Shown here piece after piece: positions 1,021 to 4,651 of a DNA stretch of 25,789 nt. Within the stretch, counting starts at the first letter, position 1, and each line of letters opens with the position of its first letter. The notes beneath the pieces were generated by a model that saw nothing but the letters and a program-made list of their open reading frames with translations, made no database searches and was not told the origin of the DNA. The stretch covers positions 1 to 25,789 of the IMG/VR virus record IMGVR_UViG_3300024255_000135. One strand, written 5' to 3'. Source of the stretch: a virus. Made by a program: the position numbers and the translations under genes.

Positions 1021-1028
1021 TATTTATT
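1021..1028 (-). promoter_or_regulatory. Late promoter AATAAATA before the 305-aa gene
   Basis: AATAAATA on the minus strand, one base off the T4 late consensus TATAAATA, 24 bp upstream of the ATG at 997 and overlapping the stop region of the upstream gene. The same variant precedes scaffold gene 22, which supports it as a functional form. Confidence 0.5.
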
Positions 1029-1575
1029 ACTTTAACATAATGTCCCTAATGTTATCCATAAGTTTTTTACAGTCTCTGTCAGAAATAGTTCTAGGCATAC
1101 CAGTTCTAAATGAATTGAAATCAGATTGAACTGCTGCTGCTCTCATCTTACTGGCAGACATACCTTCAGCACCATCAGCATCTGGATCTCTTTCACCAGC
1201 AGATATCACTTCTAGTTTTCTGAATGTATATTCAACTCCATTATACTTACTAATCATAGCATCGTATTGTGCCACACGGTCAGATCCTGCTACTAGAACA
1301 CAGTCATGATATGTTCCTTGAAGACCTTGGAGTGCTTTAATAATTGTATTAGTGTTAGGATCATAAACAATATTACTACTCATAGAAGGAAACATCTTCT
1401 TCATGAGATCAGATTTAGTTTTTGAATCCAATGGATTTTTTTTCTTGTCCTGAGTATGAGTAGGGTAGATAAGAAAATCATCACCAGCAGCAATCTTCTC
1501 TACTGCTTGCAGAAGTTTTTCATGTCCGATTGTTGGTGGGTTAAATCTACCCCATGCAAATACTACTCGTTTCAT
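1027..1575 (-). CDS. NMNAT-like / cytidylyltransferase-family nucleotidyltransferase
   Basis: A 182-aa HIGH-superfamily nucleotidyltransferase. Residues 9-18 read GRFNPPTIGH, the glycine-rich loop plus TxGH (variant of HxGH) that binds the NTP phosphates. GMSASKMR near residues 138-145 matches the C-terminal ISxTxxR motif. VLVAGSDRV supplies the middle beta-strand and Asp found in this fold. Known relatives transfer AMP or CMP to a phosphorylated substrate (NMN adenylyltransferase, CTP:phospho-alcohol enzymes), releasing pyrophosphate. The substrate cannot be told from motifs alone. The start overlaps the stop of the 404-aa ligase-like gene by 4 bp, so the two are probably translationally coupled. 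If it is an NMNAT, it could regenerate NAD from NMN; that is inference. Confidence 0.85.
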   Translation of the reverse strand: MKRVVFAWGRFNPPTIGHEKLLQAVEKIAAGDDFLIYPTHTQDKKKNPLDSKTKSDLMKKMFPSMSSNIVYDPNTNTIIKALQGLQGTYHDCVLVAGSDRVAQYDAMISKYNGVEYTFRKLEVISAGERDPDADGAEGMSASKMRAAAVQSDFNSFRTGMPRTISDRDCKKLMDNIRDIMLK

Positions 1576-2786
1576 TTGTCTCCTGCTACCCAGTCTTTAG
1601 ATACATTAAAGTTTGCTACGCTGAATGACAAACGATCAACTAACTTCACTGCGTTGGTTCCATTACTGACAGCAACATAACCCTCAGGTGCGGTGACTTC
1701 ATAACCACCTTCTGTCTTAAGGTAGGTTCCAATACGCTCACCCTTCTCAAGTTTACGAATGAATACTAACTTCGCATCCTGCAATAACTTATATAGTTGT
1801 ACTGTGCTATTAAGAGAGTTCTTATTCTTTTCAATAAACTCTAGACCATCAAACATCTTCTTGAGTTTGGTTGCCTTTGCCTTCGGAGTTTTTACTTTAT
1901 CAACTGCCTTCTGACATTCAGTCTCAAAATATTTTGTGAACTCTCTATAGAATGTATTCGGTTCGGGAACTGTTCTACCCTGACGAACATATGTGTTAAA
2001 GAAAATCTTTAATCGTGGTCCTACAGTCAATTGATCCTTAAGAACAATCTGTGCTGCTACCTCATCTAAGAATGATCCTGCTGTGCGAACATGACTAGGT
2101 GCCTGAGTTTTAAGTTGAGATAACTTACTCTTCTCAGTAGGTGTGAGAAGAGTATCCTTTCCTAACTGTCCGGTCTCAGCACTCAGCACTAGAATGTCAT
2201 CACTCTTCTTTAATCTACTCACATCAAATCCGAACGAAGCATTCATACTGCTTACATCAGATCCTGAATAAGATGTATGAAATACTACACCGATCTTTGC
2301 TTTCTTTGCCTTCTCATATAGATCACTATCTTCTGGTATGGCATAGGTAATTGTGTTAGGTTGAAATGTGATACAAGTCTTGCCATCGATCACCTGAGTT
2401 TTCTTATCATGAGTAAACAACAGGTCACCCTGTGCTACACCATTGATACCTAGTGCTGGAAAATATTTTAATGATGCTTTTAATTTCTCTACCAGACCAG
2501 CAGCATGACCGTGGTTTCTTTCAATATCAGCATCAACATAATTGATCTTCGCATCTTTATTGAAGACTGATTTAGTTCCGACAAAGAAGTTATCTGTGCC
2601 TGGATAGTTGCCACAGAAAATAGCAGGAGCACCATCCCATTTCGTAGTGATCTTAAAGTTATTATTACCCCCACCAGTAAAAGTTTTTGCTAGTAAATCT
2701 AAAAACTTAAATGCATCAGAAGCACCAGCAGCTCCGTCAAATAATATACTATCTTCTAGGTGTTCTAAGTGTGTGTTCTTACTCAT
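1572..2786 (-). CDS. Putative KxDG ligase-type nucleotidyltransferase (404 aa)
   Basis: A protein of unproven function, probably one of the conserved cyanophage hypotheticals. I see covalent-nucleotidyltransferase (DNA/RNA ligase) motifs in the right order. Motif I is K49-W-D-G52 in TTKWDGAPAIF, where the Lys would form the lysyl-AMP intermediate. A motif III-like GVAQGDLLF spans 116-124, a IIIa-like KIGVVFHTSY lies at 164-173, motif IV is E368-G-Y-V371, and motif V is K381-L-V. Between IIIa and IV sit about 190 extra residues, mostly helical and lysine-rich, unlike minimal ligases. It overlaps the genes on both sides by 4 bp. The family could be an RNA or DNA ligase or a protein- or metabolite-adenylylating relative. 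I am fairly sure of motif I, less of the others. Confidence 0.6.
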   Translation of the reverse strand: MSKNTHLEHLEDSILFDGAAGASDAFKFLDLLAKTFTGGGNNNFKITTKWDGAPAIFCGNYPGTDNFFVGTKSVFNKDAKINYVDADIERNHGHAAGLVEKLKASLKYFPALGINGVAQGDLLFTHDKKTQVIDGKTCITFQPNTITYAIPEDSDLYEKAKKAKIGVVFHTSYSGSDVSSMNASFGFDVSRLKKSDDILVLSAETGQLGKDTLLTPTEKSKLSQLKTQAPSHVRTAGSFLDEVAAQIVLKDQLTVGPRLKIFFNTYVRQGRTVPEPNTFYREFTKYFETECQKAVDKVKTPKAKATKLKKMFDGLEFIEKNKNSLNSTVQLYKLLQDAKLVFIRKLEKGERIGTYLKTEGGYEVTAPEGYVAVSNGTNAVKLVDRLSFSVANFNVSKDWVAGDK

Positions 2787-4219
2787 GATCCCGCAATGTA
2801 TTCAGATAAACCTTTTTGTTTCTCCACATAATTACGAATAGCAGTGCCACCCCACTCAATCTTATGTCTGAATTTAATTAGATCATAAACTTTATTATCA
2901 TTTTTATTCTTAGCACTAATGATAACTGCTGGTAGTGGTGCTCCCACAGTAGGATCTCTAGGAACTGATTTGTGATATGTTGATGCCAGTTCCAGATTTG
3001 CTTCTACATCCAAGTCCGGTCTACCGTTGAGTGCTACATGTAATTTAGAGAAATCAAACTTCTCATAACCACTACCAATAATCTCTACGAGTTTTACATT
3101 CTCCTCATTTTTTGTAGCGAAGTCATCAAGTGTTTCTACAAAATGTTTTCTCCAAGAAGAGTTACCAAACTTATTCTGTATTCTGTTATGCGCCCAGAGA
3201 TAGATATCATTCATCACAGCAGCAGCATGATGCTTAGTTGTTTCAAAATCCCCGTCATTATGCTTGGCATAGATTGCTTCTAGTTGAACGTTATTGATTA
3301 GATTTTCATCTAAGATAACACCCCAGAAATTATTAACAGTTTGGATATCCCATCCACCAACCTGAGCGAATTGATCTACCTCACGCTTCAGTGAGATCTG
3401 AGTGATAGCTAATTTTCTATTACCATATCTACCAGGAATTGTTATGTCTTTCTTCCCATCAATCCTCACAAAGATATCAACCTTTGTCGTTAGTTCACCA
3501 CCAACACCATCAGCTTCGACTTCAATTTTATTGTAAACTCTATTATGATACATGACATTTGCTAACTGAGAAATTTCTCTGGAGTTAGCATACTGAACGC
3601 ATGGCGTCATGATACTCATGCGGTCAGCAATACCTGATGCCTTCTCATCATTATCTAAAAGTTGCTCGCAAAAAACCAATGACATATTGATGGGCGACAA
3701 CTTAATAGTCAGTTCAACATCATCATCAGGGATCATCTTAGCGGACTCCCTAATGGTTTTAAAATTAGGAGACTTGAATATATTAAAACTTCCTTTGTGA
3801 TCTGTGGACAGTGTTCTATATTGCTTTTCTAGAATATTTAAAATATCCCTTTCATTAATTCTTTTTCCTTTATTAACAAAACGAGCAGCAATCGCTGCTG
3901 CTAGAATTCCTTCTGCAGCATTACCCATATTATATCTTGCCCTACCACCACCACTACCAACTCCATATCTAATTTTTAATGTAGTGCGAGAATTTCTTTC
4001 CAAGTCTCTTTCACTAAGACCAGATGCCTGTGCTATCTCAGGATGTACTTTAACTTCATTACCACCTCTAGCATCATTAAGGATCAGGGGGCGATCCACA
4101 TTACGATATTTACTAGTAAGGTATTCATAAAGTTCTACAATCAAACCAATCTTATCAGCTTTATAAGTAGTTACTTGATATATTTCATCCTTGTTTCTCG
4201 GACGAATAGAATATGCCAT
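2783..4219 (-). CDS. 478-aa protein with PD-(D/E)XK nuclease-like features
   Basis: Unknown protein, first gene of the left-hand cassette. The stretch MGNAAEGILAAAIAARF (98-114) resembles the N-terminal helix with a conserved Glu (E103) seen in many PD-(D/E)XK nucleases. About 145 residues later come TKVDIFVRIDGK (D248) and LAITQISLKREVDQFAQVGG (275-278 is ISLK), matching the D...(E/Q/S)xK strand pair followed by a Gln-containing helix. The long gap between the helix and the core is filled with 130 residues of unknown fold. The 3' end overlaps the ligase-like gene by 4 bp. A late-type promoter and a terminator lie immediately upstream. I would call it a candidate nuclease; it could equally be a structural or DNA-binding protein with a degenerate fold. 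Confidence 0.5.
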   Translation of the reverse strand: MAYSIRPRNKDEIYQVTTYKADKIGLIVELYEYLTSKYRNVDRPLILNDARGGNEVKVHPEIAQASGLSERDLERNSRTTLKIRYGVGSGGGRARYNMGNAAEGILAAAIAARFVNKGKRINERDILNILEKQYRTLSTDHKGSFNIFKSPNFKTIRESAKMIPDDDVELTIKLSPINMSLVFCEQLLDNDEKASGIADRMSIMTPCVQYANSREISQLANVMYHNRVYNKIEVEADGVGGELTTKVDIFVRIDGKKDITIPGRYGNRKLAITQISLKREVDQFAQVGGWDIQTVNNFWGVILDENLINNVQLEAIYAKHNDGDFETTKHHAAAVMNDIYLWAHNRIQNKFGNSSWRKHFVETLDDFATKNEENVKLVEIIGSGYEKFDFSKLHVALNGRPDLDVEANLELASTYHKSVPRDPTVGAPLPAVIISAKNKNDNKVYDLIKFRHKIEWGGTAIRNYVEKQKGLSEYIAGS

Positions 4220-4220
4220 T

Positions 4221-4241
4221 AAAAAACCCCCTTACGGGGGT
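4221..4241 (-). terminator. Rho-independent terminator after mazG, overlapping the next RBS
   Basis: On the minus strand ACCCCC-GTAA-GGGGGT followed by six T. It ends the polymerase-uvsX-41-mazG run. The T run ends one base before the ATG of the 478-aa gene, and the 3' arm AAGGGGG lies 7 bases from that ATG, where a Shine-Dalgarno sequence would be. Confidence 0.85.
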
Positions 4242-4248
4242 ATTTATT
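4241..4248 (-). promoter_or_regulatory. Late promoter AATAAATA before the 478-aa gene
   Basis: AATAAATA on the minus strand, 22 bp upstream of the ATG at 4219 and overlapping the mazG stop codon. A transcript starting 6-7 bases downstream would begin within the terminator stem, leaving only the GGGGG arm, which would then be free to act as ribosome binding site. Confidence 0.45.
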
Positions 4249-4651
4249 AGAGATCTCCTTCTACTCTGTTCTCTGAATGATGAACGTCAAACTCACCACC
4301 AGGGTAACGAGCCATCAGTTTATGAACATTCATCTCAATGACTTCATCGATAGAAACATTCAGACCCATACATGCCTGAGCAACATACCACATGATGTCA
4401 CCCAATTCACGCTTCATGTGAAACAAATTTTCATCATTGACAGGTTTGCCTTGGAAGACAATCTTCTTAACAATCTCAGTGAACTCACCTGCCTCAGCAG
4501 ACATTCCTACAGCAGCAGTAAGTAATCTCTCACTAGGAAACTCTTGTCCTTCTAGTTCTTGAAGACGATAGACTAGTGCCTCAAAGTCCTTGCTTTGTTC
4601 TGATGTAACAGCATCAACGAACTCAAGATATGCTTTAGTGTTTACAGTCAT
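4247..4651 (-). CDS. mazG: MazG nucleoside triphosphate pyrophosphohydrolase
   Basis: A 134-aa MazG-type NTP pyrophosphohydrolase that cleaves (d)NTPs to monophosphate and pyrophosphate in the cytoplasm. The metal-binding helices are visible: SAEAGEFTEIVKKIVFQ (ExxE type) and KRELGDIMWYVAQACMGL (ExxD type), with the usual four-helix spacing. Cyanophage MazG proteins are of this size and are thought to alter host nucleotide pools or ppGpp; the exact substrate in infection is debated. The gene begins 3 bp after helicase gene 41 and is followed at once by a strong terminator, so it is the last gene of the polymerase-uvsX-41 operon. Confidence 0.92.
   Translation of the reverse strand: MTVNTKAYLEFVDAVTSEQSKDFEALVYRLQELEGQEFPSERLLTAAVGMSAEAGEFTEIVKKIVFQGKPVNDENLFHMKRELGDIMWYVAQACMGLNVSIDEVIEMNVHKLMARYPGGEFDVHHSENRVEGDL

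Follow-up and report, generated by a model that had tools for sequence, protein, structure and literature searches.

The window, a virus record of 25.8 kb, was found to come from a T4-like cyanophage (a marine T4-like virus). Its mazG, gp41-type helicase, uvsX and gp43 genes lie on the same strand as a set of three genes that they adjoin, and the gene order is that of Synechococcus phage ACG-2014h. The features of the three-gene set and of a fourth gene are as follows, in the direction of transcription:

4241..4249, minus strand (read 4249-4241): late promoter TAATAAATA, compared with the cyanophage late consensus NATAAATA; overlaps the mazG stop codon
4220..4240, minus strand (hairpin 4240-4227): terminator hairpin CCCCC-GTAA-GGGGG followed by T6, upstream of the P0003 ATG
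2783..4219, minus strand: P0003, 478 aa, nuclease-like slot protein (phrog_3560); open reading frame with motif residues E103, D248, S276-L-K278, Q283 and Q286
1572..2786, minus strand: P0002, 404 aa, DUF6267 by Pfam (PF19782, phrog_455), a ligase-fold nucleotidyltransferase by structure model, with predicted catalytic K49
1027..1575, minus strand: P0001, 182 aa, NMNAT-fold nucleotidyltransferase by signature and Pfam (CTP_transf_like; T4-GC190 'cytitidyltransferase')
1021..1027, minus strand: late promoter ATAAATA before P0004, at the P0001 stop codon
80..997, minus strand: P0004, 305 aa, fourth gene of the module, with an N-terminal domain and a C-terminal DxDNDGDxDxSDxYL motif

The three open reading frames are joined by two exact 4-nt overlaps, all on the minus strand and at the positions given in an earlier sequence-only reading. 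P0004 was grouped with them because other phages (phrog_395, phrog_455; S-8S56, S-RIM2, ACG-2014f, Melnitz) carry its N-terminal domain as a C-terminal fusion to the NMNAT-like protein.

From these features the three genes look like the opening of a late operon. The late promoter consensus of cyanophages is NATAAATA (PMC2984593), and the late-type promoter proposed previously for the set was recovered, although its position after the terminator was not: TAATAAATA overlaps the mazG stop and borders the hairpin on its 5' side. Among 49 distinct relatives, [N]TAAATA was found upstream of the slot gene in 45, compared with 16% of random stretches. In 33 of 44 relatives the late promoter lies within the loop of an intrinsic terminator hairpin just before the ATG (for example CCTCCCC-TAAATA-CTTAGGGGAGG-TTTTTT); controls with shuffled flanks gave 0.15 on average and 2 at most. 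In the window the promoter abuts the hairpin. Three of the six aligned stem pairs are changed on both sides in relatives with pairing kept, and a Shine-Dalgarno-like run separates promoter and ATG in 42 of the 44. The 3' arm of the window's hairpin, AAGGGGG, lies 7 nt before the P0003 ATG and, judged from its sequence, can be used as a Shine-Dalgarno sequence. The hairpin would have two tasks, stopping read-through from the replication genes and hiding the ribosome site, while late transcripts, initiated inside the hairpin, would escape both the terminator and the masking. If it works in this way, the nesting of terminator, late promoter and ribosome-binding site forms a compact switch that is easily tested. 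Neither this nested element nor the virion association and capsid-targeting-like N-termini of relatives described below had been part of the sequence-only reading.

P0002 belongs to Pfam DUF6267 (E 2e-126), a family without assigned function. Its AlphaFold model is of high quality (pLDDT 90.1, pTM 0.84), and in a second-look structural alignment all 50 matches listed were ligases, with RNA ligases first. The Naegleria RNA ligase came first, with Z 8.9 for 182 aligned residues at 3.6 A, and further matches included TbREL1 (Z 8.0), a tRNA ligase (7.7), T4 Rnl2 (7.5) and T4 Rnl1 (7.4). Because the matches listed were all ligases, the nucleotidyltransferase fold was accepted; its absence had been set beforehand as the result that would speak against the original proposal. 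The KWDG ligase motif noticed earlier is present as motif I, K49-W-D51-G52 (KxDG), and motifs III, IIIa, IV and V, which were assigned by eye, follow in order as Q119-G-D121, F141-x-P143, E368-G369-x-V371 and K381-x-V383. Across 45 diverse DUF6267 sequences K49, D51, G52, Q119, D121, F141, P143, E368, G369, V371 and K381 are invariant and V383 nearly so. On the model, P0002 is a protein of the covalent-nucleotidyltransferase (ligase) fold, and this assignment together with a named lysine, K49, makes DUF6267 directly testable.

P0002 resembles T4 RNA ligases 1 and 2, the Naegleria RNA ligase and TbREL1 in fold, in the KxDG lysine and in the residues and order of motifs III, IIIa, IV and V. It differs from them in that motif III reads QGD, with D instead of the usual E, in about 190 largely helical residues between motifs IIIa and IV, and in a conserved N-terminal NTHLEHLED signature. 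It also lacks a Pfam ligase match: the Pfam search returned no RNA- or DNA-ligase family, only DUF6267 and an irrelevant weak match, and a PDB profile search found no ligase. With Foldseek nothing in the PDB was matched at E <= 0.001 (best row T4 Rnl1, E 0.54). The moderate fold score, Z about 9, and the empty Foldseek result count against the preferred reading given below. The DUF6267 protein would be an ATP-type polynucleotide ligase or a related nucleotidyltransferase, presumably catalytic and with RNA or DNA as its substrate.

The description of the 182-aa protein as a TxGH adenylyltransferase of NMNAT type was borne out for signature and fold family. P0001 contains the (H/T)xGH signature (GRFNPPTIGH) and matches Pfam CTP_transf_like with 26.7 bits (cut-off 21); G9, R10, P13, G17, H18, S140 and R145 are invariant in 21 NMNAT-like members. 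It falls far below every NMNAT equivalog cut-off (22.1 vs 164 bits, 19.6 vs 112 bits), and on these sequence comparisons 'NMNAT' is a statement on fold family, not on substrate. The phage NadM/NadR proteins, which act with NadV in NAD salvage, share the HIGH-type nucleotidyltransferase fold with P0001, whereas P0001 carries neither a Nudix nor a kinase domain and scores far below the NMNAT equivalogs. No NadV was recognised among the genes examined.

The 478-aa protein does carry PD-(D/E)XK-like motifs. Residues E103, D248, S276-L-K278, Q283 and Q286 are invariant in its family and resemble a PD-(D/E)XK site, with serine S276 where an acidic residue is usual, a replacement also seen in other slot families. 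Neither Pfam nor a PDB sequence search gave a match. The P0003 model is weak at residues 240-290, the motif region, and its fold matches, the best with Z 3.9, all stay below Z 4 and belong for the most part to a widespread NTF2-like type. P0003 is thus best called nuclease-like, on its motifs only. The position directly before DUF6267 is occupied by at least four mutually dissimilar families in close relatives, most of them with a D...SxK motif, and further slot families were found in S-8S56, DLP_6, S-SM1, Melnitz and L189; K-x-D ... S-x-K occurs in many of them. A strict nuclease-like motif occurs in 7 of 25 slot families from all loci, compared with 5 of 91 background families, a count that is only suggestive. 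When the profile of the P0003 family was compared with that of the largest other slot family, no match was obtained; the motif region of this largest family is found again in group 3 (E 1.3e-6).

Searching 50,697 phage records revealed DUF6267 in 465, mostly cyanophages, and the NMNAT-like protein in 535 with nearly the same cyanophage make-up. The co-occurrence check proposed with the original observation showed that the two genes stay together: the NMNAT-like gene directly follows DUF6267 in all 60 distinct close viral-contig relatives with enough sequence, and the 4-nt overlap is kept in 52 of them. With this adjacency and the DUF6267 match, the observation of a linked set is real and beyond chance. 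The idea of a fixed three-gene cassette holds for the DUF6267/NMNAT-like linkage, and for the third gene as a slot but not as a single family. At distant DUF6267 loci an NMNAT-like gene lies within 4 kb in 27 of 44 cases. In S-PM2 the end of DUF6267 is fused to the NMNAT-like protein, and other NMNAT-type domains are fused to DUF6267 at six distant loci (L120, L124, L131, L136, L147 and L151). In S-CREM2 and ACG-2014f the DUF6267 and NMNAT-like genes are widely separated, which counts against the preferred reading. A scan of cellular genomes returned 38 loci, nearly all on metagenome-assembled contigs, and the family therefore looks viral. Literature searches on DUF6267/PF19782 found no paper naming the family in the literature searched, and a search combining NMNAT, RNA ligase and tRNA repair found nothing.

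Further evidence comes from the neighbours of the distant relatives. Pfam was applied to 32 proteins encoded close to distant DUF6267 genes and selected mainly for a start resembling the capsid signal; it recognised six adenylate kinases, five zeta-type P-loop kinases and one HAD/nucleotidase. At L147 an NMNAT-like domain, a HAD-like segment (motif by eye) and DUF6267 are joined in one protein of 1043 aa; Pfam confirmed DUF6267, and the CTP_transf match was sub-threshold. Since kinase and HAD company corresponds in composition to a kit for end healing and sealing, it is the main ground for a repair reading, which stays circumstantial.

Relatives of two of the three proteins have been found in virions. 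Virions of S-SM1 contain T4-GC190, a putative citidylyltransferase (Sullivan et al., PMC3037559), and NMNAT-like proteins were detected in virions of S-CREM2 by mass spectrometry (ORF154; PMC10665884) and of S-SCSM1 (ORF91; PMC9602691). In the S-SCSM1 record SSCSM1_90 (NKWSPADIYV...MFGVSLKK), encoded directly upstream of the NMNAT-like gene, is marked as a virion protein; its family, phrog_1462, is the largest that fills the slot. What has been published thus concerns other phages, and proteins related to P0001 and to the slot protein; the proteome authors themselves caution that detection may reflect carry-over in CsCl preparations. The DUF6267 protein of S-CREM2 (gp87) is missing from that phage's virion table, and the virion-proteome papers examined do not report DUF6267 in virions.

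The T4 capsid-targeting consensus provides a yardstick for the N-termini of the relatives. Starts like it were found in the NMNAT-like proteins of S-SM1 (MKKFSAFLNEAE), S-CREM2 (MKNFSSFLTEAD) and S-SCSM1 (MKSFLQFLKEAA). Within the S-CREM2 stretches examined, the virion proteins gp6, gp13, gp14, gp136 and gp154 have such starts, and the loose pattern also fits two further proteins. Among distant DUF6267 relatives 29 of 71 carry a capsid-targeting-like start (0.7 in shuffles), directly before the conserved NTHLEHLED, as do 10 of 30 distant NMNAT-like relatives (0.05 in shuffles); similar starts occur in slot proteins too, Melnitz L103 and L144 among them. The pattern was also matched by chance near distant relatives, for instance in UvsX (MSDFLKDIIKE). 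A capsid signal in the window's own P0001, P0002 and P0003 was considered and rejected, their N-termini having no capsid-targeting start, and among close relatives the start is rare (2 of 54 DUF6267 and 3 of 60 NMNAT-like proteins). The window's proteins and most close relatives being without the signal, packaging in the window's phage is an inference, as are virion association of DUF6267 and delivery into the cell.

Taken together, these data are best explained by a late operon of virion-associated enzymes that would jointly act as a nucleic-acid end-processing and repair kit for the start of infection, a reading to which we give a probability of roughly 0.55. The operon products would be made together with the head and would probably enter the cell with the viral DNA. 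The DUF6267 protein would adenylylate its K49, after which the AMP would be transferred to a 5'-phosphate end and the break closed. The slot of the first gene would supply exchangeable proteins of PD-(D/E)XK-like type that process or bind ends, and the NMNAT-like protein, a nucleotidyltransferase working on NAD (from NMN) or a different nucleotide cofactor, would support the cell in early infection. On this reading a new ligase-fold family forms the core of the operon, whose enzymes probably act on the ends of nucleic acids when the following infection begins. The weakest links are the absence of the capsid signal from the window's proteins, the nuclease assignment of P0003, the substrate of the NMNAT-like enzyme and the step from fold to activity.

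The exchange of the slot protein between unrelated families could point to independent virion-associated proteins that share late timing and packaging but have unrelated actions (for example NAD supply, attack on host nucleic acid, and a pseudo-ligase) and form no single pathway. The separated genes of S-CREM2 and ACG-2014f and the functionally mixed character of the wider capsid-signal neighbours fit this explanation, which we nevertheless regard as unlikely, given the adjacency of DUF6267 and the NMNAT-like gene in 60/60 close relatives and the fusions in S-PM2 and at the six distant loci. Repair of tRNA cut by host anticodon nucleases, carried out after expression by unpackaged enzymes in the manner of T4 Pnkp/Rnl1, is less probable still. 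Phages are established to repair tRNA (PMC9503650), and P0002 shares the ligase fold, with kinases and HAD-type proteins near its distant relatives. The promoter, however, is late rather than early, partner proteins were detected in virions, and in the window no kinase or phosphatase gene adjoins the set.

Very little weight can be given to the coupling proposed in the sequence-only reading, in which an NAD-using ligase releases NMN and its neighbour remakes NAD. It would account for the strongly conserved DUF6267/NMNAT-like pairing. Against it, P0002 has no NAD-ligase family match in Pfam at E <= 1 and only 48 residues before the motif I lysine, where an NAD-dependent DNA ligase has its NMN-binding part, and its best structural matches are ATP-dependent RNA ligases; an NMNAT identity of the 182-aa protein is likewise not supported by its 22 bits against a 164-bit equivalog cut-off.

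The reading of a late, virion-associated end-processing kit can be carried further. Marine T4-like phages might package a complete end-repair set (nuclease-like protein, ligase and NMNAT-like protein, in some lineages also with kinase and phosphatase) inside the capsid and deliver it along with the genome, so that damage would be repaired ahead of the expression of any phage gene; this stronger version is tentative, and we consider it rather doubtful. If the set is packaged, the recurrence of NMNAT-like proteins in cyanophage virions would be explained, and phages would be shown to inject repair-type enzymes. For T4 a capsid-targeting mechanism has been described (PMC10229621). Whereas T4 delivers IP proteins or the ADP-ribosyltransferase Alt, by way of a capsid-targeting sequence, gp21 processing and injection, the products here are repair-type enzymes and the window's copies are without the signal; the operon is like the genes of the T4 internal head proteins and Alt in its late expression and in having relatives found in virions, and its distant relatives share the M-x-x-F-x-x-F-[LI]-x-E start.

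A late promoter lies within a terminator hairpin or directly against it, an arrangement that recurs among relatives.

Window 4220-4249: promoter/hairpin element; same place in L058, L091, L077, L093 and other relatives

The element was present in 33 of 44 relatives, against 0.15 expected, and the 3' arm of its hairpin is predicted to be usable as a ribosome-binding site. An element of the same kind also lies 5' of the S-CREM2 gene for DUF6267 (the ligase-fold family of P0002) that is unlinked to an NMNAT-like gene (L109:3595).

Some DUF6267 proteins occur in longer ORFs. A single 869-aa ORF (L036:6606-9215) spans DUF6267 and a protein like P0003, the nuclease-like product, and is either a true fusion or a one-base error where the genes overlap. 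In L147:4018-7149, NMNAT-like, apparent HAD-like and DUF6267 parts form one 1043-aa protein.

Some distant DUF6267 genes are adjoined by P-loop kinases with capsid-targeting-like N-termini.

L122:4464-5048: P-loop kinase, a clear adenylate kinase by Pfam
L148:7477-8040: P-loop kinase
L160:7286-7861: P-loop kinase

Such a start is common to S-CREM2 gp6, gp13, gp14 (L191) and gp136 (L192), which comprise a SAM hydrolase, a kinase and two others, all virion-detected; this shared start suggests a packaging signal general to cyanophages. S-CREM2 gp12, a Cas9-like virion protein, carries RFASFMAEAA close to its N-terminus.

The 91-aa S-PM2 'NrdB' (L003:9528-9803), annotated as a ribonucleotide reductase subunit, instead matches the N-terminal domain of P0004 (the 305-aa product), as does phrog_4808; the reductase label looks wrong.
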